This document shows positions 5,558 through 21,776 of a stretch of 32,120 nt of DNA, piece after piece; positions within the stretch are counted from its first letter, which is position 1, and each line of letters begins with the position of its first letter. Below the pieces are notes generated by a model that did not search any database, had not been told where the DNA came from, and worked only from the letters and a program-made list of their open reading frames with translations. The DNA lies in the IMG/VR virus record IMGVR_UViG_3300022198_001753, positions 1 through 32,120 of that record. One strand, 5' to 3'. This stretch comes from a virus. The position numbers and the translations under genes are program-made.

Positions 5558-7765
5558 ATGGCGCAAACTTACGGTGGATATCCTGATGCGGCTGTTAACG
5601 CAGCCAAGAGAGCTCTCAAGCACAGAGACGCTAACGGCACTAGCTGTGGCACTTCTGTTGGTTGGCAACGCGCTAACCAAATCGCTAAGAGAGAGAAACT
5701 CAGCATGTCCACCATCAAGCGCACCTTCAGCTTTCTCTCAAGAGCCAAGACTTATGATCAAGGCAAATTCACCGATGCTAACGGTAAAGACATTTGCGGA
5801 TCGATCATGTATGCGGCATGGGGAGGTGACAGCATGAAATCATGGGCTGAAAGGACGATTAAAAAAGCAGAACGAGAAATGAGTAAGAACAACTTGGAAG
5901 TACGCTCCCTTAATTCAGATTTTGAGGTAAGAGCAGAAGAAGGTAAGAATCCGGTTGTAGAAGGTTATGCTGTCAAGTTTGAAGATACCACAGTCATTGG
6001 GGGCCAGTTTTCAGAATCAGTTTCTAGAAACGCTTTCGAAAACGCTGATATGTCTAACGTGGTGGCTCTGTTCAATCACGATTGGAATATGCCCTTGGCT
6101 CGTACAGGTAAGGGGCTGGAGCTGGAGATCGATGAAATGGGTCTTAAGTACCGCTTTGAGCTTGGCGAACAATCATACGCAAAGGATCTTGCTGAAAACA
6201 TTCGTATGGGGAACGTCTCTACGTCCTCATTTGGTTTCACTATTAAAGATGACTCATGGGAAAAGAGGGACGGTATGAATCACCGAACGATCGTTTCAGT
6301 TGACAAGTTATATGACGTGTCACCAACGACTCAAGGCGCATATCCCACCACTGAAGTTGCTCTCCGCTCTATGGAAGCGGCCTTGGCTGTTACTGAAGAG
6401 TCCGAGGAGGAGGAGTTGGCCCAGTTGGTTGCACAAGAAGCTGATAATGAGCAACAGCCTGAGACGCAAGAAGTGGCTGAGGAAGTTGTTGCTGAGGCAG
6501 GAGCAACTGAAAGAGCAGACGAACCAACAACAACAGTAGAGGAAGAAGAAGAAGAGGAAGAGGAAGACGAAGACAACATGGAGGAAGAGAGGGTAGATAT
6601 TTTGATTGACAAATCCATCCTACCTCATCCTTTCGCTCTAGATGAACAAGTAAATAAAAACAAAGAGCCGGAGGCTCGAATTGATTCTAATATGGACAAA
6701 AACAAAGAAAAGAACGCTCCGGCCTACATCCAAGGCTTGGGCGACAGCGAGGCACGCGCTGCCTCCAAGTTTTCCTTCGGGAAGATGATTAAAGAAGCTG
6801 CACAGGGCCGTTTGACTGGCGTTGAAGCAGAGATGAACCAAGAAGGACGGAGCGAGTTCTCCAACGGCAAAGTAAATGTCGCTGGTGGCATCTGCATCCC
6901 TTCTTTCATCGTTAACCGTGCTGGTGAAGCCCTCGGTGTGGGTGCTGACGCAACCAATGTTTTGGCTAACTTTGGTGGTACAATTGGTACTAACGACAAT
7001 GGTCTTGTTGAGGCTTTTGCCCCCAACGATATCGCGTCTCAGTTGGGCGTTCGTAACTTGACGAACTTGACTGGTGATGTAGTTTTCCAAGTTCAAGGCA
7101 CTAAGATGACTGCTGGCAAGCCAGCTGAAGGTGTTGACCAAGCATCTGCAAACGTAGCTTTTAGCCCTGTTACCCTCGCTCCTGTTCGTTACAGCGCACA
7201 CACGAAAGTTACCGACCAGATGTTGGCGCAGTCAGCTCAGGACATGGGTGCTTTCCTTGCTATGGATATCCGCCGTGCTATCGACAAGAAGTTCAACGAT
7301 GACATTGTAGCTGCTATTCGCGCCGCCGCTGATGACAACGCAACTGTAGCTGGCACTTTGGATAACTATAATTCAGCTACAAAAAACCCAATGCACCTTG
7401 AGGAATACTTGCTCGGTCGTGATGTGGATTTGGCTGGCATTGTTACCTTGTCTGGAACGGCTGCTTACAGAGTTTTCCGTCAGTTGAGCCACGATGCAGG
7501 TAGTGGATTGCTGTTTGCTCAGAGCCCTCTGGAGCGCCGCAACGTGATTGGTTACCCAACAGTGATCTCTTCTTCTGTTGCTTCTGATGAGTTCTTTATG
7601 TTCCACAGAGAGCAATTGGTGAGTGGCACTTGGGGCGGATTAAACTTGATCATTGATCCTTACAGCGATGCCGACCATGGCGTTACTCGTATCGTAGCTA
7701 ACGTGTACCGTGATGTCAAGGCGCTTCAAACTGCCGCATTCGACGGTCTCGACGCTGTTCAATAA
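5558..7765 (+). CDS. Fused prohead protease / major capsid polyprotein with extra N-terminal domain
   Basis: 735 residues in three parts. Residues 1-107 form a small Cys/Trp-containing domain (two Cys-Gly pairs, an M-Y-A-A-W-G-G-D core) that I have seen in aquatic phage head proteins but cannot assign a function. Residues about 108-275 are an HK97-type S78 prohead protease: F-N-H-D-W with catalytic His174 and S-T-S-S-F-G-F with nucleophile Ser224. An acidic linker (about 276-345, with a run of Glu/Asp at about 6538-6580) leads to an HK97-fold major capsid protein at about 379-735. In-frame ATGs at 5879 (before the protease) and at 6578 and 6692 (before the capsid) could give separate products; otherwise self-cleavage must release the capsid. 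A terminator follows directly. Confidence 0.95.
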   Translation: MAQTYGGYPDAAVNAAKRALKHRDANGTSCGTSVGWQRANQIAKREKLSMSTIKRTFSFLSRAKTYDQGKFTDANGKDICGSIMYAAWGGDSMKSWAERTIKKAEREMSKNNLEVRSLNSDFEVRAEEGKNPVVEGYAVKFEDTTVIGGQFSESVSRNAFENADMSNVVALFNHDWNMPLARTGKGLELEIDEMGLKYRFELGEQSYAKDLAENIRMGNVSTSSFGFTIKDDSWEKRDGMNHRTIVSVDKLYDVSPTTQGAYPTTEVALRSMEAALAVTEESEEEELAQLVAQEADNEQQPETQEVAEEVVAEAGATERADEPTTTVEEEEEEEEEDEDNMEEERVDILIDKSILPHPFALDEQVNKNKEPEARIDSNMDKNKEKNAPAYIQGLGDSEARAASKFSFGKMIKEAAQGRLTGVEAEMNQEGRSEFSNGKVNVAGGICIPSFIVNRAGEALGVGADATNVLANFGGTIGTNDNGLVEAFAPNDIASQLGVRNLTNLTGDVVFQVQGTKMTAGKPAEGVDQASANVAFSPVTLAPVRYSAHTKVTDQMLAQSAQDMGAFLAMDIRRAIDKKFNDDIVAAIRAAADDNATVAGTLDNYNSATKNPMHLEEYLLGRDVDLAGIVTLSGTAAYRVFRQLSHDAGSGLLFAQSPLERRNVIGYPTVISSSVASDEFFMFHREQLVSGTWGGLNLIIDPYSDADHGVTRIVANVYRDVKALQTAAFDGLDAVQ

Positions 7766-7852: not shown

Positions 7853-8434
7853 ATGGCACAGATTAGAATCACAAACAATTACGTAGACGGAACACAGCTT
7901 GTGTCTCTCGCCGACATGAAAGATCACTTGAGAGTCAGCGGTACTGAAGAGGATGATTTGATCAAGGCTTACATGGATGCCGCATCCGATTACATGTCGT
8001 CTGTTGCCGGAAGAACCTTTAAGTACAGTGGAGGCGAAGCCAACGTGTACTTATACATGTCAAAGGGTGAGCTGTACGGAACGGTACGCAAGGCCGATGA
8101 CATTACTTTGTATCAAGCTAGATACAAGAACGATGCTGGTGGGTACAGCATTATGGATGCTGCTGACTATGTAGTAAACACCGAGACCTACCCAGCCACC
8201 TTTAAAATTAAGAACGTACCTGATGACATCGCTGATGATGATACTGATGCGATATATCGTATTTGGTTCAAAGGTGGAGAGGACGTTACGTTGCTACCCA
8301 AGCAGTTTAAGATCGCTATGATGCTGTTGGTATCACACTACTACACCAACCGCGAAGCTGAATATGTGGGTGGTATCACCACAGAGCTAAAAGAAGGTGT
8401 CAAGCGTTTGTTGAACACCGTAAAAAAGTTCTGA
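7853..8434 (+). CDS. Head-tail connector (HK97 gp6-like adaptor)
   Basis: 193 residues. The N-terminal half has the gp6/gp15-type adaptor pattern: a first helix S-L-A-D-M-K-D-H-L-R-V (about 19-29), an acidic turn E-E-D-D-L-I, then a long helix (AYMDAASDYMSSVAGRTF). A beta-rich middle of unusual length (about 60-135) is followed by a C-terminal helix (FKIAMMLLVSHYYTNRE) that also recurs in the family. Adaptors of this type form a ring under the portal. The ATG follows the capsid terminator by 7 bases, so translation must use read-through transcripts. The next gene begins after a single base. Confidence 0.9.
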   Translation: MAQIRITNNYVDGTQLVSLADMKDHLRVSGTEEDDLIKAYMDAASDYMSSVAGRTFKYSGGEANVYLYMSKGELYGTVRKADDITLYQARYKNDAGGYSIMDAADYVVNTETYPATFKIKNVPDDIADDDTDAIYRIWFKGGEDVTLLPKQFKIAMMLLVSHYYTNREAEYVGGITTELKEGVKRLLNTVKKF

Positions 8435-8435
8435 T

Positions 8436-8801
8436 TTGAAGAAGAGCATCGGCGCAGGTCAGATGGACCGCAAGGTAAGCTTTGGTCGTGTTTTCACAGA
8501 AATAGACTCCGACACGGGATCTAAGTCTTCTAGGTTTATGTATACTAGAAGCAACGTGTGGGCTAAGGTGGATTTCTTTGGTACACCTTCTGCTGGTGCT
8601 TCTGAGGATATGATTAACGACCAGAAGACTGGTAAAATCAAAATTGAGATCTACGTAAGATTTTTTGCTGACATCAAGTTTGAGGATTTTGTTGTATTTA
8701 AAGGTAGATACTACGAGGTATATTCCATTCAGATGGTAAACAATCGCGAGTATCTTGTTTTGAGAGCCGAATGGCGTGACGATTACGAACCACTAGCATA
8801 A
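8436..8801 (+). CDS. Head-closure / head-tail joining protein, copy 1
   Basis: 121 residues, beta-rich, resembling SPP1 gp16-type head-tail joining proteins (Phage_H_T_join): G-x-M/L-D/N-x-K-V/I-S near the start, V-W-A-K-V in the middle, a F/Y-x-V-x-S-I-Q strand, and a final R-A-E/E-W-R-D-D. It would plug the portal-adaptor ring and dock the tail. The start is taken as TTG at 8436 rather than ATG at 8463 because the downstream paralogue aligns over these first nine residues (K-K-S-I-G-A-G-Q against N-R-P-T-G-S-G-S). It stands one base after the adaptor stop and four bases before its paralogue. Confidence 0.9.
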   Translation: MKKSIGAGQMDRKVSFGRVFTEIDSDTGSKSSRFMYTRSNVWAKVDFFGTPSAGASEDMINDQKTGKIKIEIYVRFFADIKFEDFVVFKGRYYEVYSIQMVNNREYLVLRAEWRDDYEPLA

Positions 8802-8805
8802 CGAT

Positions 8806-10977
8806 ATGAACAGGCCAACAGGATCAGGATCTCTAAACCAAAAAATCAGCATTGTAGACAGGCAAAGTTTGCTTGACGATACAAATGGTTCTAAGGTTTT
8901 TAATGATGATACGGTCATTGCTAAAAAGGTTTGGTGTAACGTAAAGTATATCGGCACACCTTCTGCTGGTGCTTCCGAGGACAGGGAGGAATTGCAGCGC
9001 ACAGGTAAGGTCAAGATTGAGGCTAAGATGCGTTACCGTGAAGACATCAAGCACGATGACGTTGTGGTATTTATGGGCGGCTTGTTTGACATCTATTCCA
9101 TTCAGGAGCGGGGCAGGGATGAGTTCATTGTAATCCGTGCTGAGTCTCGCGACGACGACACTTATCAGATCGCAATTGCTGACGAGCAGTCGGAACAGTT
9201 TTACTTAGAGTACCCATATGGAGTAGAAGACCCCGCCGCCACTGAAGATGGTGCTACTAGGTTGTTAAGTGGTGCATTGATAAGATATGACGACACCATA
9301 TCCCCTATATATATAGAAACATCTGAAATAGATGACGCATCACTTCCATTTAACAGTAGTGATTTTTATATAGAGCTACCTATAGAATGGTTCAACGACT
9401 ATACTAAATCAGGACTCATCAATGGTGATCTGAATGACCTAGCTGTTCCTGCTTATGTAGACGATAATACAGCAACGCTTCATGATATATGGCCGGATGA
9501 GTCAGTATACAATACTTTCAACGGCATTAATGTGCTTGCCCAAACTGGCAGAAAAAGAGGAGGTATACGAATCCCAATGCCAAACAGCTCATCGGGAGAG
9601 AGCCCATGTAGTATAAGTTTTGATTTAAAAATCAATCCTACATATAGATGCTCGCTGCCTATACCGTATCAATTGATAGATGTTTCATCTATACCATATG
9701 AGGGTTTAAATAATTCCGCTTACCTGTCTAACCTTGATGACAAGATGGTATGCGCTACTTATAAGAAGTCATATTTAAATCCAATCGACTATACAGGTCA
9801 GGAGACAAATCCAAAACTAGCATACTATACACCCGTGATTGCTGTACGCCCATACATAGGAAGCAATCTATACAGAACTACTTATTACAATCCAAGTCCA
9901 TTCGGATCATCGACAATTGATATTCAAATAGGGATAGGAAGGTTTTTTAGCAACACACTTGATCCTCAATATTTGGGTTATGCCACAATAAACGATGTAC
10001 CTGTATTAAAAAGAGGTGACGTTCCTTGGGTTGACTTCAGATGGGGCGGAATACGTAGAAACTACACGGCTGGTTCTGTTAAGCAATATGACTCTTTAAA
10101 TGCTGATTTTACAAGAGACTTCTCTACACACCAGCTAGTCGATGATGGCTTATCGGTTTTAGATTATTGGGATGTAGAAATTGAGTCTGGCACGGTCACT
10201 GGAACCTCAAGGGTTTTATTAAGCCTCAGATATGGAAATAAGATGGGTGCTTTGCCTTATACTGTTACCGAGTCGGGCGGAACAACAGCAAGTTTCTATC
10301 CTGTCAACATGCATCACATAAATATTGCAGACGCATCCAACTCTACTGTAAGGGCTCAATTTTACCAACATTATACAGGTAGTGATTACGTTGCCACCGC
10401 GCCATCTGGTTGGGATTTAAGACGTGCCTTTGACACTACATTATATTTTGATGACTATGGCTTTTATAGATCCCCAAATGTGGCATTAGAGGATTTATAT
10501 ATTAGGATTAAAAACCCTCGTTTGATAGTTAACAAACTTAATCTTCCCGATGGATATCAAGATGGTGATGATTTGGTTTACGAGGAAGTAGAGTATAAGA
10601 TTGATGGTTACGAAATAGATCCAATAACTGGCGGTTTTGTTTCTAGTTCCACAGCTCAAAATAACCACCTAAACCAATTCTATGTATACGATAACATTCC
10701 GAGTGAGGTAAGGGATGAAAAACAAGCTACATGTGTTTTCAAGTTTGACGTAGAATATAGGCTCAAGCATTTCGTTGAAGACGACTCATTGTTCATGTTC
10801 TCCACCAACGATCGCTCTTTTGTTTCTCCACCAGATTCAGATCAGTATTTTAGCACTATTCAAGTACAAGAGGAGGACACCGTTAACGAGTTTGTTCTAC
10901 ACGGAGGTATGGAAGCTCAAAATCTATTCCCTTTCACTGTTACTCACGAAGTAAAAGTTAGAGACGCAAATGGCTAA
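8806..10977 (+). CDS. Head-closure paralogue fused to a large beta-rich extension (possible neck fibre)
   Basis: 723 residues. Residues 1 to about 122 are a second copy of the preceding head-closure protein; both carry G-T-P-S-A-G-A-S-E-D and share a 19-base exact match (ACACCTTCTGCTGGTGCTT). Residues about 123-723 are unlike any head-closure protein I know: Tyr-, Asn-, Ser- and Asp-rich and beta-like, with many ATA, AGA and TTA codons from about 9280 to 10690, so more AT-rich than the neighbours. The arrangement suggests a protein anchored in the neck ring that projects a fibre or decoration outward, possibly a receptor or glycan binder; that is inference. The last 90 residues (from about 10700) return to the usual composition. 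The stop overlaps the next gene by 8 bases. Confidence 0.9.
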   Translation: MNRPTGSGSLNQKISIVDRQSLLDDTNGSKVFNDDTVIAKKVWCNVKYIGTPSAGASEDREELQRTGKVKIEAKMRYREDIKHDDVVVFMGGLFDIYSIQERGRDEFIVIRAESRDDDTYQIAIADEQSEQFYLEYPYGVEDPAATEDGATRLLSGALIRYDDTISPIYIETSEIDDASLPFNSSDFYIELPIEWFNDYTKSGLINGDLNDLAVPAYVDDNTATLHDIWPDESVYNTFNGINVLAQTGRKRGGIRIPMPNSSSGESPCSISFDLKINPTYRCSLPIPYQLIDVSSIPYEGLNNSAYLSNLDDKMVCATYKKSYLNPIDYTGQETNPKLAYYTPVIAVRPYIGSNLYRTTYYNPSPFGSSTIDIQIGIGRFFSNTLDPQYLGYATINDVPVLKRGDVPWVDFRWGGIRRNYTAGSVKQYDSLNADFTRDFSTHQLVDDGLSVLDYWDVEIESGTVTGTSRVLLSLRYGNKMGALPYTVTESGGTTASFYPVNMHHINIADASNSTVRAQFYQHYTGSDYVATAPSGWDLRRAFDTTLYFDDYGFYRSPNVALEDLYIRIKNPRLIVNKLNLPDGYQDGDDLVYEEVEYKIDGYEIDPITGGFVSSSTAQNNHLNQFYVYDNIPSEVRDEKQATCVFKFDVEYRLKHFVEDDSLFMFSTNDRSFVSPPDSDQYFSTIQVQEEDTVNEFVLHGGMEAQNLFPFTVTHEVKVRDANG

Positions 10978-11401
10978 CAGGATTACCATCAACATGAATG
11001 ACCGTATGGCTCGCAAGAAGCTCGATAAGATGATCACATTCACTAAAGATCACGAGAAAGAGCTTCGTAAGATATTACGGGAGGCCGTTCAAATAGCCGC
11101 AAATGCCGTCAATGAAAGAATTTATTCTGGAGCTATAACACAGCGAACTGGTAAATTAGGCAAAGCCATGGGGGTTGGAACCTTTAAATCGGAACGTGGT
11201 GGGTATATTGGAGGTAAAGCAAGACCAAAAAAAGCATCTAGTAGAAATGGAGGTTGGAGAGTTCATTTTTTTGCTACACCAGCAGTTCAAATGAACAAGA
11301 AATACAGGTTTGATTTCCAGAAAGTATACAACAGTAAAGCCTCAGCTATTAGAAAAAAATTCACAAGCGACTTAAACAGACTACTTAAGAAAATCATATA
11401 A
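10970..11401 (+). CDS. Tail completion protein, HK97 gp10-like
   Basis: 143 residues with the pattern of the HK97-gp10/gpZ-like tail-component family: an N-terminal strand, then a long helix beginning near residue 25 (E-L-R-K-I-L-R-E-A-V) that continues through A-A-N-A-V-N-E-R-I-Y, the R-T-G-K-L loop at about 57-61, a Lys/Gly-rich stretch, and a final helix rich in Lys. It is strongly basic. In siphophages this protein joins the completed tail to the closed head. The position between head-closure and tail-tube genes agrees. It overlaps the upstream stop by 8 bases and precedes the tail tube by 3 bases. Confidence 0.88.
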   Translation: MANRITINMNDRMARKKLDKMITFTKDHEKELRKILREAVQIAANAVNERIYSGAITQRTGKLGKAMGVGTFKSERGGYIGGKARPKKASSRNGGWRVHFFATPAVQMNKKYRFDFQKVYNSKASAIRKKFTSDLNRLLKKII

Positions 11402-11404
11402 AAA

Positions 11405-11983
11405 ATGGCAACTATTTCAGCAAATGCGTTAGGTGTTTACGCAATTGACACTCCACAAACATCACCCCTCGATGTAGTTACATCAGCTACAATTGCAGGT
11501 GCTACCGTACCTTCTGGGCTTACTACTGGCGACTACGCGATCATCATCGATTCGACTGGAGCTTGGGTAGGTATCGGTAAGGTTGATAGTGGTGCTTTTA
11601 CAGATGGATCTGGCGATTTGTCTTTGATGACAGCGGCTACTTCAACCAACTTGGAGGCTTCAAACACAGTTAACGAGACCGTAGCTCGCAATGGATCAGG
11701 TGGCTCTACTACTTACATCGTAGGTGGAGCTATGTCATGGTCTATGAGTGTTGATGGTCTTCTCGATCTGAGCACTATAGGTGCGGGTTCTTCTGTTACC
11801 ATCATGGACGCAGCTAGAGCTAAGTACTACGTTATCGTTAAATTCGATACCGGAACTAACGTAAGCTATATCGGACAGGCTTTGATTGACTCTGTTTCTA
11901 TGAGCGGCGGTGTTGATGATATTGCTACTTACAGTGCTTCTTTCTCAGGCAACGGAGATCTGTACAAGGAGGTAACCCCGTAA
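11405..11983 (+). CDS. Major tail (tube) protein
   Basis: 192 residues, Ser/Thr/Gly/Ala-rich and almost entirely beta-predicted, as in TP901-1-type major tail proteins. Family features include the N-terminal strand, the M-S-W-S-M-S-V-D-G-L-L-D-L block at about 109-121, and the near-C-terminal A-T-Y-S-A-S-F-S-G-N-G-D-L. Hexamers of it stack to form the tail tube. Codons differ from the flanking genes by favouring GCT, GGT, TCT, ATC and TAC, as expected for a highly expressed gene and as seen in the capsid gene. The start lies in an A-run without Shine-Dalgarno sequence, and a strong terminator follows the stop. Confidence 0.92.
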   Translation: MATISANALGVYAIDTPQTSPLDVVTSATIAGATVPSGLTTGDYAIIIDSTGAWVGIGKVDSGAFTDGSGDLSLMTAATSTNLEASNTVNETVARNGSGGSTTYIVGGAMSWSMSVDGLLDLSTIGAGSSVTIMDAARAKYYVIVKFDTGTNVSYIGQALIDSVSMSGGVDDIATYSASFSGNGDLYKEVTP

Positions 11984-12066: not shown

Positions 12067-12426
12067 ATGGCTACTAGAAAAATCACAAAAGTTAACGAGC
12101 TGCGCGGTCAGTTCGAAGTAACTATCGACGGTAAAAATCTGATTGGCGTATCTTCAATGAACGCCCTTAGAATGTTTACCAAAGACAACGGTTACAAGCT
12201 CGATGAGCTTGACAAACACATGGAGGCGGATCCTATGGGAACTATCGCTGAGTTAGCTTATTACTCGTGCTTAAATAAAGCTCATAGAGATGATAAGGAT
12301 ATTGATGTGTCAAAAGACAAGTTCATTTCCTTCTTTTTGGACGACATTGATCAGATTCAGGAATTGTCTAAAACGATCATGATGTCTTTGTCTCCACAAA
12401 GCTCGACTGAAGAGCCAAAAAAGTAA
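12067..12426 (+). CDS. Tail assembly chaperone, zero-frame product (gpG-like)
   Basis: 119 residues, mixed alpha/beta then helical and acidic. Position (between tail tube and tape measure), length and the frameshift signal at its 3' end identify it as the short form of the tail assembly chaperone, equivalent to lambda gpG. It would coat the tape measure during tail assembly and is not expected in the virion. The sequence alone would not have been recognisable. The last codons are CCA AAA AAG TAA, so the slippery heptamer abuts the stop. The ATG follows the tail-tube terminator and has no Shine-Dalgarno sequence (ACACACACA leader). Confidence 0.88.
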   Translation: MATRKITKVNELRGQFEVTIDGKNLIGVSSMNALRMFTKDNGYKLDELDKHMEADPMGTIAELAYYSCLNKAHRDDKDIDVSKDKFISFFLDDIDQIQELSKTIMMSLSPQSSTEEPKK

Positions 12427-18676: not shown

Positions 18677-21042
18677 TGACTAACCAATACAACACAGAAG
18701 TAACTAACATCACTACAACAGGGTCTGATGTTCTAGTTTTTACAGCATCAGCTACCACCACCCTGTTGAAGACGATTTCATGGTACAGCTCTTATACGGC
18801 TAGCATTCAGCTCAAGCTCAAGAAATACGGAGGAACAACTACCGAGATAACCTCTTTTTCTGCTGGGGCAAGCAAATCTACGCCGCTTTTTAGCGATCTG
18901 ATCGCCCTAAAAGCCAACGATGAGGTGTATATCCAAACAGATTCTCCGGGTTCTCTAACGATTGTAATGGTGACTAGCTCGGAGTCGCTTTCGGGTCAGT
19001 CTATCGATGTATTGATTGATGTCGACACCACGGGATCAGCTACTGGCGACCTGTTGGTTTACAATGGTACATCGTGGGTGGCGGATAGCGGGAGCTCAAG
19101 CCTGAACCTAACGGTAGGAGCAGTTGACTTCGAGCTCACCACACCACCTTCCCTTATTGATGGTAGATTGGCTTATGACATCGATCGCGAGTCGCTAATC
19201 TTCCAATCTGAGCATGGTGAGTTGGCTATTGGAGAGACATATAAGCCTGTATACAATAACACGGGATCAACTATTGCAAAGGGATCTACAGTAAAAGCCA
19301 CAGGTGTTTCTGGAGAGAAGTTTCTGATCGAGCTTTTCGATGCTTCATCTGGAGTTGATGAGGAGCTTTACTTCGTTGGAGTCACACAAGCTGACATCAA
19401 TGATCAGACAGCAGGAATCGTGGTGAGCGAGGGTTTGGTAAAACACCTCGACACAAGCACTTACTCTATTGGAGACATCCTATACGCAAGTGAGACCGCT
19501 GGTGGGTTGACGACAACTAGGCCGACATCACCAAATCTAGGCATCCCAGTAGCCATGGTAACAAAGGTGGATGGAACCAATGGAACTATTTACGTCAGAC
19601 CAAGCATCTACAACCACCTAGAAGAAATTCATGATGTCTCGATCTCGTCAGTTGCTAATAACCAGCTTTTAGCTTACAATTCGACAAGTGGAGTATGGCA
19701 GAACGTATCTGACATTACAATTAACAGTGCTATCGTTTTAACTGGTGGGGTAGCTAGTTTAGGTAATATAAGTACTACGGGCAGTTTGACTGCTGCCACA
19801 CTCAATGTTCCGGGTGCAGTAAGCTTTGGTCAAATTACATCTAGCATAGGTGTACTAACACCTTCAATCACATTTACTAATCCCGGACAATCAGTAATTG
19901 GCGTAGGAGGTTTAGGACCAGATGACCTCGTCATACAGTCTAATGGTAACGTAACTGTAGAGCTTGATGCTGACAACGATGAGACATCTCAGAAGTTTGC
20001 TGTAAACGATCCAAGCTCAACAGAGAGGTTTAGCGTTAGCGATACTGGTGTTGTAACTATTAACAGCGCATTTTCTCTACCAAGCTCAGATGGCACTTCA
20101 GGTCAGACTCTGCAAACAAACGGAACTGGAACTTTAACATGGGCGACCCCAAGCACTGGAGGTATTTCTGACGTAGTAAATGATACCACTCCGCAACTGG
20201 GTGGTGACTTAGACGCTAACGGGTATAACCTTGATATGACTAGCAATACAGCTAGTACATTGGTGATCACAGCTAACCAGTATGCATTTAGATACAAGTC
20301 TACTGGAGGGGTATTGCAGAGTACAGGATTGTATTTTAATGCTACTACAGGTCAGTATGAGTTTTTGAATGGGTCTGCTGTTTGTGTGTTCTGCATTAAA
20401 GCAGGAACAGGAGAAACTTCAATAGGTGGCGCAACAGGTTATACTTTACCTGTCACGGATGGTACTGCCAATCAAGTATTAAAAACCGATGGAAATGGAA
20501 ACGCTGATTGGACCACTTTAACCACACCTCCAAGTGTAATTGATGACCTTTCGGATGTTTTTGTTGCATCACCAGCTACTGGAGAGTTTTTAAAGTACGA
20601 TGGCTCAGAATGGACAAACGATAATGTTACGTTAAACGAGGTATTTGACGTAAACCTAACTAGTGTTGCGGATGCTCAGGTGCTTACTTATGATTCTGCA
20701 ACCTCAAAGTGGATCAATCAAGCACCAAATTACTTCTTTACTGTTTCAAGCAATTCCAACACGGCCATTACTCTCGCTTCAGGCGATGAAGGCAAGTACA
20801 TAAGGACTACAGCAACAACAGCAGTAACGGTAACTATTCCGTCTGGAGTTTTCTCTGTAGGTGATGAGATTCTCATCGAACAGGCGGCTGCTGGTCAAGT
20901 AACGGTTGCGGCTGGTACTGGTGTCACGTTAAACAATAGCGCAAGCAACACGGCTAAAACTGCCGAGCAATATGCGGTAGTTGGATTGAAATGTGTGGCT
21001 TCAGATGTATTTACTTTAACTGGCGAAAGAGAATTAGTATGA
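18676..21042 (+). CDS. Tail fibre protein with repeated modules
   Basis: 788 residues, Thr/Ser/Gly/Asn-rich and beta-like throughout. A degenerate module of about 25 residues (D-V-x5-9-G/N-x-L-L-x-Y-N/D-x-T/S-x-x-W) occurs near 19010, 19625, 20540 and 20635. A second module (P-x-x-D-G-T-x-x-Q-x-L-x-T-N/D-G-x-G) occurs near 20083 and 20450. These are typical of trimeric fibres of aquatic phages. A V-Y-N-N-T-G-S-T-I-A-K-G domain lies at about 19248-19620. The C-terminal 100 residues form an Ala/Thr/Val-rich beta domain. The likely role is host attachment with the lectin encoded next. The stop overlaps the next start (ATGA). Confidence 0.88.
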   Translation: MTNQYNTEVTNITTTGSDVLVFTASATTTLLKTISWYSSYTASIQLKLKKYGGTTTEITSFSAGASKSTPLFSDLIALKANDEVYIQTDSPGSLTIVMVTSSESLSGQSIDVLIDVDTTGSATGDLLVYNGTSWVADSGSSSLNLTVGAVDFELTTPPSLIDGRLAYDIDRESLIFQSEHGELAIGETYKPVYNNTGSTIAKGSTVKATGVSGEKFLIELFDASSGVDEELYFVGVTQADINDQTAGIVVSEGLVKHLDTSTYSIGDILYASETAGGLTTTRPTSPNLGIPVAMVTKVDGTNGTIYVRPSIYNHLEEIHDVSISSVANNQLLAYNSTSGVWQNVSDITINSAIVLTGGVASLGNISTTGSLTAATLNVPGAVSFGQITSSIGVLTPSITFTNPGQSVIGVGGLGPDDLVIQSNGNVTVELDADNDETSQKFAVNDPSSTERFSVSDTGVVTINSAFSLPSSDGTSGQTLQTNGTGTLTWATPSTGGISDVVNDTTPQLGGDLDANGYNLDMTSNTASTLVITANQYAFRYKSTGGVLQSTGLYFNATTGQYEFLNGSAVCVFCIKAGTGETSIGGATGYTLPVTDGTANQVLKTDGNGNADWTTLTTPPSVIDDLSDVFVASPATGEFLKYDGSEWTNDNVTLNEVFDVNLTSVADAQVLTYDSATSKWINQAPNYFFTVSSNSNTAITLASGDEGKYIRTTATTAVTVTIPSGVFSVGDEILIEQAAAGQVTVAAGTGVTLNNSASNTAKTAEQYAVVGLKCVASDVFTLTGERELV

Positions 21043-21776
21043 GTTTTTTTCAAGCAGTTGCATCATCAAGAAGGATACCTACGACGAGCGTAAGTATTGT
21101 AACAAGTGATATTATTCAATGGTTTGAACCTACGTTGCTAAATGGAACGACATGGGAGAACAAGTCATACGCTGACGGCTACAATACTAGCGTTCCGCAA
21201 TATGGGACATTGGTAAACGGAGCGGGAGAAGCTACCGATCCAAACGGAGTCAAGGCTTGTTATTTTGATGGGGTTAACGATAGGGCAAACCTACACTTCA
21301 ACACTTACAAGAGTTGGTATACGATTGACTCAAACAATACAGGATGGACGATTGAGTGTTGGGTTAGAAGCAATGGAAATTGGTTGAGTAATGGTAATAT
21401 TTGGAACTCATATCAAAACTCAGGGATACGATGCAGAACAACAAGCACAGGATCTTTTAACTATGCTTACATCAAAGGAGGTACAGCTCATACGGTAGGT
21501 ACGCTATCAACAAACTCATGGTATCAGATCGTAACTACATACGACCCGTCTGTAAATAAAATAAAGACATATTTTAATAATTCATTGATTACAGATCAAT
21601 CAAGTGGCTGGCAACCTGATTCATGGATTGGTGGAACTTGCTATATCGGAGGCTACAATTCAAGTCAAGAATCAGGTAGGTTTTACATGAGTACGTTCAG
21701 GGTTTATGAAAGACCATTAAGCGCATCTGAAATAAGTCAAAATTACAACGCTGACAAATCTTATCATGGACTATAA
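21039..21776 (+). CDS. LamG-like (concanavalin fold) carbohydrate-binding tail protein
   Basis: 245 residues from ATG 21039, chosen because it overlaps the fibre stop (ATGA); an upstream in-frame ATG at 20991 would lie inside the fibre gene. The jelly-roll lectin pattern (Laminin_G_3-like) is clear: A-C-Y-F-D-G-V-N-D at about 68-76, W-T-I-E-C-W-V-R-S at about 98-106, W-Y-Q-I-V-T-T-Y-D, F-N-N-S-L-I, and the terminal F-R-V-Y-E-R-P-L-S-A-S-E-I-S-Q-N-Y. Such domains bind glycans or calcium-dependent ligands; at this position it is probably the receptor-binding tip. It overlaps the next gene by 11 bases. Confidence 0.9.
   Translation: MSFFQAVASSRRIPTTSVSIVTSDIIQWFEPTLLNGTTWENKSYADGYNTSVPQYGTLVNGAGEATDPNGVKACYFDGVNDRANLHFNTYKSWYTIDSNNTGWTIECWVRSNGNWLSNGNIWNSYQNSGIRCRTTSTGSFNYAYIKGGTAHTVGTLSTNSWYQIVTTYDPSVNKIKTYFNNSLITDQSSGWQPDSWIGGTCYIGGYNSSQESGRFYMSTFRVYERPLSASEISQNYNADKSYHGL

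Follow-up and report, generated by a model that had tools for sequence, protein, structure and literature searches.

A tandem pair of head-closure genes in a siphophage, with one copy extended by a candidate neck appendage

Why should a siphophage carry two adjacent head-closure genes, and what might be the role of the large C-terminal region that only one of them bears? Stoppers form rings that seal the DNA in the head, and typical head-closure proteins are about 100–130 aa long, present once and without a large C-terminal module. The question is raised by the virus record IMGVR_UViG_3300022198_001753, whose whole stretch of 32,120 bases was analysed and is referred to here as the window. It carries a siphophage structural cassette in the order large terminase, portal, capsid, adaptor Ad1, head closure, Neck1-like protein, major tail protein, tape measure and a 990-aa tail protein, in which the terminase, portal and capsid were named from tblastn matches together with position. 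All neck genes of the window lie on the plus strand. The head-tail adaptor Ad1 (193 aa; 7853–8434; PF05135, E=1e-11; PHROG 40, E=2e-20) is located directly 5′ of a plain head-closure protein (Hc1, stopper) of 121 aa with a TTG start (8436–8801), hereafter HC-A, which is adjoined by an intact single open frame of 723 aa with an ATG start (8806–10977), hereafter HC-B. The end of HC-B is overlapped by a Neck1/tail-completion-like protein of 143 aa (10970–11401; PHROG 5, E=0.0014), the same gene as is found 3′ of head closure in relatives, and the major tail protein lies at 11405–11983 (PF06199, E=9e-7; PHROG 1407, E=4e-12).

The original prediction, made from the letters alone, held that the head-closure gene is duplicated and that the second copy has about 600 extra residues. 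Both points were borne out: HC-A and HC-B are 43% identical across 117 aa (E=8e-27), the same tandem recurs in a second phage (locus L005), and HC-B consists of a second copy of the head-closure domain (residues 1–120; 8806–9165) and a C-terminal extension (residues 121–723; 9166–10977). The DNA identity of 19 bases that had been noted between the two copies is likewise present, with its length corrected to 20 bases: the run ACACCTTCTGCTGGTGCTTC, which codes for TPSAGAS in HC-A (8583–8602) and recurs in HC-B (8956–8975), is the longest common to the two genes and sits within a 56-nt repeat of 75% identity. HC-A exceeds the cut-off of Pfam PF05521 (34.3 bits; cut-off 25) and is matched by PHROG 25 ‘head closure Hc1’ (E=6e-11). 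No Pfam or PHROG profile matched the window HC-B by itself, and its ortholog in L005 lies above the PF05521 cut-off (27.1 bits); membership of the PF05521/Hc1 family is thus found directly for HC-A, and for HC-B through its identity to HC-A and through the L005 ortholog. The conserved motifs TPSAGASED and QRTGK are retained in the HC-B domain, and the position between Ad1 and Neck1/major tail protein, in the window as well as in relatives, is that of Hc1. Judged by sequence, the first 120 residues of HC-B are therefore a member of the head-closure family; they, and the whole of HC-A, resemble the Hc1 stoppers (PF05521 Phage_HCP; PHROG 25; SPP1 gp16, lambda gpFII) also in gene order, while HC-B as a whole differs from typical stoppers in its module and in being a second copy.

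The second phage, contig IMGVR_UViG_3300027612_000032 (loci L005/L009), carries a tandem of a 122-aa plain and a 739-aa extended copy. Between the window and L005, the plain copies are 65% identical and the extended copies 32% identical by BLASTP over nearly the whole length (E=2e-82), the head-closure domain standing at approximately 58% and the extension at 33%, whereas the adaptor, HC-A, Neck1, major tail protein, portal and terminase share 61–80% identity. These pairwise identities suggest that the duplication most likely predates the split of the two phages. The pairing of HC-A with HC-B is weakly supported (89/22), and an origin of HC-B by duplication of HC-A and one by acquisition are both compatible with it. 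At 33% identity, against 58–80% for most of its neighbours, the extension changes faster than any other part of the neck region, and comparable change was found further downstream only in a 119-aa protein at 12067 and in the tape measure; such rapid change could reflect a lack of constraint and not selection. The sequence family of the extension is so far common to L005 only. The same 723-aa frame also stands in the contigs of L003 and L004, which differ from the window by 2 and 6 nucleotides over the pair.

Several further features of the two phages were observed. The TTG start of HC-A lies 1 base past the adaptor stop codon both in the window (8436) and in L005 (8127), and no obvious Shine-Dalgarno sequence was seen at any neck gene. 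L005 has two tandem major tail protein genes of 193 and 220 aa (L005:11148–12391), where the window has one. A 131-aa ORF 5′ of the terminase (1180–1575) looked tail-terminator-like by eye and had no match in a Pfam search; a tail terminator is otherwise absent from the window neck cluster. The 735-aa ORF at the capsid position (5558–7765), conserved in L005 (748 aa, 78% identity), by eye resembled a single-chain combination of a protease and a major capsid protein that has an additional domain at its N-terminus. The tail genes end with a 261-aa protein (20991–21776) that has a Laminin_G_3 lectin-type domain (E=1.4e-12) and whose start overlaps the end of a 788-aa ORF; it is likely a tail-tip receptor-binding protein.

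In searches of Pfam, PHROG, the PDB and cultured phages, the window extension had no match; cultured relatives were likewise not found by tblastn, nor credible sequence relatives in the PDB, and no lectin, CBM or fibre-shaft domain of the kind present in two relatives described below (L067 and L163) is recognisable in it by sequence. The beta-rich character that had been ascribed to the extension is plausible from its composition (41% V/I/Y/F/W/T/L) and gained nothing from structure prediction, as the AlphaFold model of HC-B, built from a two-sequence alignment, had a mean pLDDT of 31.5 and was unusable. A moderate model (mean pLDDT 59) was obtained for a family of extended relatives with 20 sequences (L044 type). 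Structural matches to its head-closure domain were SPP1 gp16 from the connector complex (7z4w, Z 11.2), the necks of Milano, XM1 and Pam3 and a gene transfer agent, and this domain dominated the matches of the model in BFVD and the PDB; the L044 extension gave only Ig-like matches at Z of approximately 5, which is background level.

To place the pair among related loci, the neighbouring major tail protein, and not head closure, was used to recruit relatives, so that the sample is independent of the gene under study. In total, 48 non-redundant loci with a head-closure gene were obtained, half of them plain (118–134 aa) and half extended (402 to 1,051 aa, with three of the 24 extended proteins running off a contig end and hence of uncertain true length). 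Because ‘non-redundant’ here means not identical and several loci are close variants, 24:24 is a rough proportion and not a count of independent lineages. The relatives inspected share the gene order Ad1, head closure, Neck1, major tail protein. Of the 24 loci with an extended protein, 22 have it as the sole head-closure protein found across the stretch compared, some of these stretches covering several kilobases on either side. Its standing alone between Ad1 and Neck1, the canonical site, indicates that an extension is compatible with the normal job of the ring-forming domain. The two-copy arrangement was met only in the window lineage and L005; the duplication is thus special to these, and having an extension is general, about half of the related loci carrying one. 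The related viruses are mostly marine, and a scan of genome contigs gave no match to a host of the window phage.

By BLASTP, the extensions fell into seven groups without clear mutual similarity, with that of L163 being a further type, and profile comparison gave only weak hints between groups 0 and 3 and between groups 2 and 6. They begin where the plain protein ends: the plain L018 protein closes with ‘...DDDTPKLPTGADLS’, and the L067 protein continues as ‘...DDDTPALPTGAIMDATAQ...’. The head-closure domains of L057 and L058 are 97% identical and their extensions unrelated; between L029 and L031, identity falls from 95% in head closure to 26% in the extension; and L067 and L059 share 93% in head closure and 67% in the shaft, with differing tips (L059 being cut by the contig end). 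Interchangeable C-terminal modules on a conserved anchor thus occur across the relatives. In the L057/L058 pair (L057:3765–4889; L058:4892–6985), the swap lies just past the domain, and in L057 a further ORF, to which no putative function was assigned, replaces the Neck1 gene. When plain and extended states were placed on a tree of head-closure domains, five changes were required, with strongly supported branches forcing at least three, and a single origin of all extensions was rejected on these grounds; a gain followed by losses is still compatible with the tree. From their sequences, the extensions appear to behave like receptor-binding modules, exchanged in the manner of tail-fibre modules.

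Two of the relatives bear lectin-type domains on their extensions. The 1,051-aa protein of L067 (L067:634–3789) comprises the head-closure domain, a middle domain, repeats of the type ‘LSGNTLTLTMSDGSTVDV’, which we take to resemble tail-fibre shafts, and a C-terminal Laminin_G_3 domain (E=6e-13). The second clear fusion of head closure to a lectin-type domain is the 444-aa protein of L163 (L163:1682–3016), in which a PF05521 domain (E=2e-14) precedes an ArabFuran-catal-like domain (PF09206; E=4e-13) that also occurs in phage proteins with minor tail or virion structural annotations. In D63, a cultured Vibrio phage, the middle domain of L067 is a separate protein two genes past Hc1, and homologs were found near the adaptor Ad3 in Vibrio phage 234P9 and near tail-fibre genes in VP16T. 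Since the parts are separate in D63 and fused in L067, a physical association of this domain with the neck is suggested, although the VP16T homolog lies near tail-fibre genes. The D63 and 234P9 homologs, neck-region proteins of 539/548 aa, are not similar to the window extension. They belong to a three-gene set of 83/131, 539/548 and 1060/1051 aa in the neck cluster (L122:6287–11344 in D63; L125:7109–12318 in 234P9), which adjoins Hc1 in one phage and Ad3/Hc3 in the other and is a candidate mobile neck-appendage module.

The original prediction further knew of no described fusion of head closure to a fibre. A described head-closure fusion of such a kind was not found in the literature searched (mostly non-subscription papers). 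One catalogued family, PHROG 10356 (852 positions, ‘virion structural protein’), has a head-closure-like start and an ArabFuran-like region. L163 matches both of them, the window matches the head-closure part only and does so in HC-A (positions 5–102, E=0.001), and in the cultured phages tested the match is confined to the lectin-type region, with no member bearing a head-closure start being found among them. Because PHROG 10356 holds both regions, at least one protein of this architecture was probably catalogued earlier, apparently without comment.

Among known systems, the lactococcal neck passage structures (NPS) of the 936 and P335 groups likewise have a conserved N-terminal part that anchors them at the neck, and their C-terminal modules, several of which bind carbohydrates, are interchangeable (PMC6669499). 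In the NPS, anchoring is by a BppU-like domain within a separate collar protein, whereas the predicted anchor here is the head-closure protein itself; no BppU-like anchor was found in HC-B, whose N-terminus is a head-closure domain with no other Pfam or PHROG match. HC-B is thus not assigned to the NPS family, and the likeness would be one of working and not of descent. Fibres at the neck are also known from T4 (whiskers) and from Anabaena phage A-1(L), whose fibres have a distal carbohydrate-binding module that did not bind the host (PMC10966104); unlike the HC-B fusion, these are separate proteins docked on the neck. What sets HC-B apart from both NPS and neck fibres is therefore its putative anchor, the head-closure domain.

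Based on these comparisons, we favour, with slightly better than even confidence, the interpretation that HC-B is a stopper subunit with a large C-terminal neck appendage, most likely an accessory host-surface adhesin and probably glycan-binding. The adhesin role is assigned to the window extension by analogy with its relatives, because of the swapping, the speed of change and the lectin-type tips seen among them. The idea that the neck ring displays fibres fares in the same way: the neck position, and the relatives that fuse head closure to fibre-like repeats or lectin-type domains, speak for it, while the window extension itself has no recognisable domain. HC-B would be located in the virion neck, where HC-A would probably build the conserved closure ring and HC-B would either be mixed into that ring or form a second ring or collar, such that the duplication would separate DNA sealing from display. 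The stopper ring of Staphylococcus phage 812 has an open channel 4 nm wide (PMC12886913). With this diameter and an assumed height of 4 nm, the channel volume is approximately 50 nm3, whereas 6 to 12 extra chains of 66 kDa would occupy approximately 480–960 nm3; since these cannot fit the channel, the extension of a ring-bound HC-B would have to be external to the neck. There it would bind the host surface reversibly before the tail tip engages, similar to what was proposed for the turrets of HFTV1 (PMC12494034) and for the lactococcal NPS (PMC6669499).

The main rival to this interpretation, which we consider unlikely and yet take seriously, is a structural collar or capsid clamp, in which the extension would wrap the neck or touch the capsid vertex and stabilise the head-tail joint without host binding. 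Precedents exist: the phage 812 stopper has, like the extended stoppers here, an extra external beta-sandwich domain, and the neck decoration proteins of that phage are thought to reinforce the joint (PMC12886913), although in 812, a myophage, this is one small domain, and the available part of that report mentions neither swapping nor lectin-type tips. The adaptor of the marine siphophage R4C is likewise a neck ring with an extra domain, a peripheral Ig-like one that contacts the capsid and is thought structural (PMC10276861), though it is single, small and on the adaptor instead of the stopper; and in Milano, neck and sheath are crosslinked by the collar (PMC10491603). The weak Ig-like matches, the only ones given by the best model for an extension in a relative, would also accord with a clamp. 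A clamp should, however, co-evolve with the conserved capsid and adaptor, yet near-identical head-closure domains bear unrelated extensions, half of the relatives lack one, and two carry lectin-type domains.

Considerably less probable is that HC-B stands outside the closure ring in the window phage, as an assembly factor that arose after duplication or as a minor virion protein, for example on the tail or capsid surface. The complete plain HC-A would leave HC-B free to change its role, and head-closure and tail-tube-like barrels are related folds, which makes a move of this sort conceivable; but in other phages the extended protein is the sole head-closure protein found, so the architecture works in a ring, and the HC-B domain has kept both conserved motifs. 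Lastly, a frame or assembly error near 9170 joining unrelated genes, or an extension that is hub-derived or an internal tail protein, both named with the original prediction as what would undo it, can practically be set aside, because the same open frame occurs in the two near-identical contigs and the same tandem in a different phage that is homologous along nearly the whole protein (32% identity), extended head-closure ORFs occur in many independent contigs, and the extension shows no profile similarity to the hub, 788-aa or 261-aa tail proteins.

With so many different, swapped extensions at exactly this place in the relatives, the neck of the virus probably serves to mount additional attachment devices. 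Stoppers are commonly viewed as small conserved seals. If half of this phage group bears large, fast-exchanging and sometimes lectin-bearing modules on them, host recognition would not be confined to the tail tip, the capsid or separate collar proteins, and labels such as ‘head closure’ or ‘hypothetical’ would miss a class of possible receptor-binding proteins. More generally, and as a proposal that we regard as evenly poised, the stopper ring may serve in largely uncultured siphophages as a general mounting plate for swappable adhesins, with about half of these phages carrying a module of their own and the window lineage having duplicated its stopper, one copy of which would seal the DNA while the other displays; the duplicated case would then be a natural separation of sealing and display.
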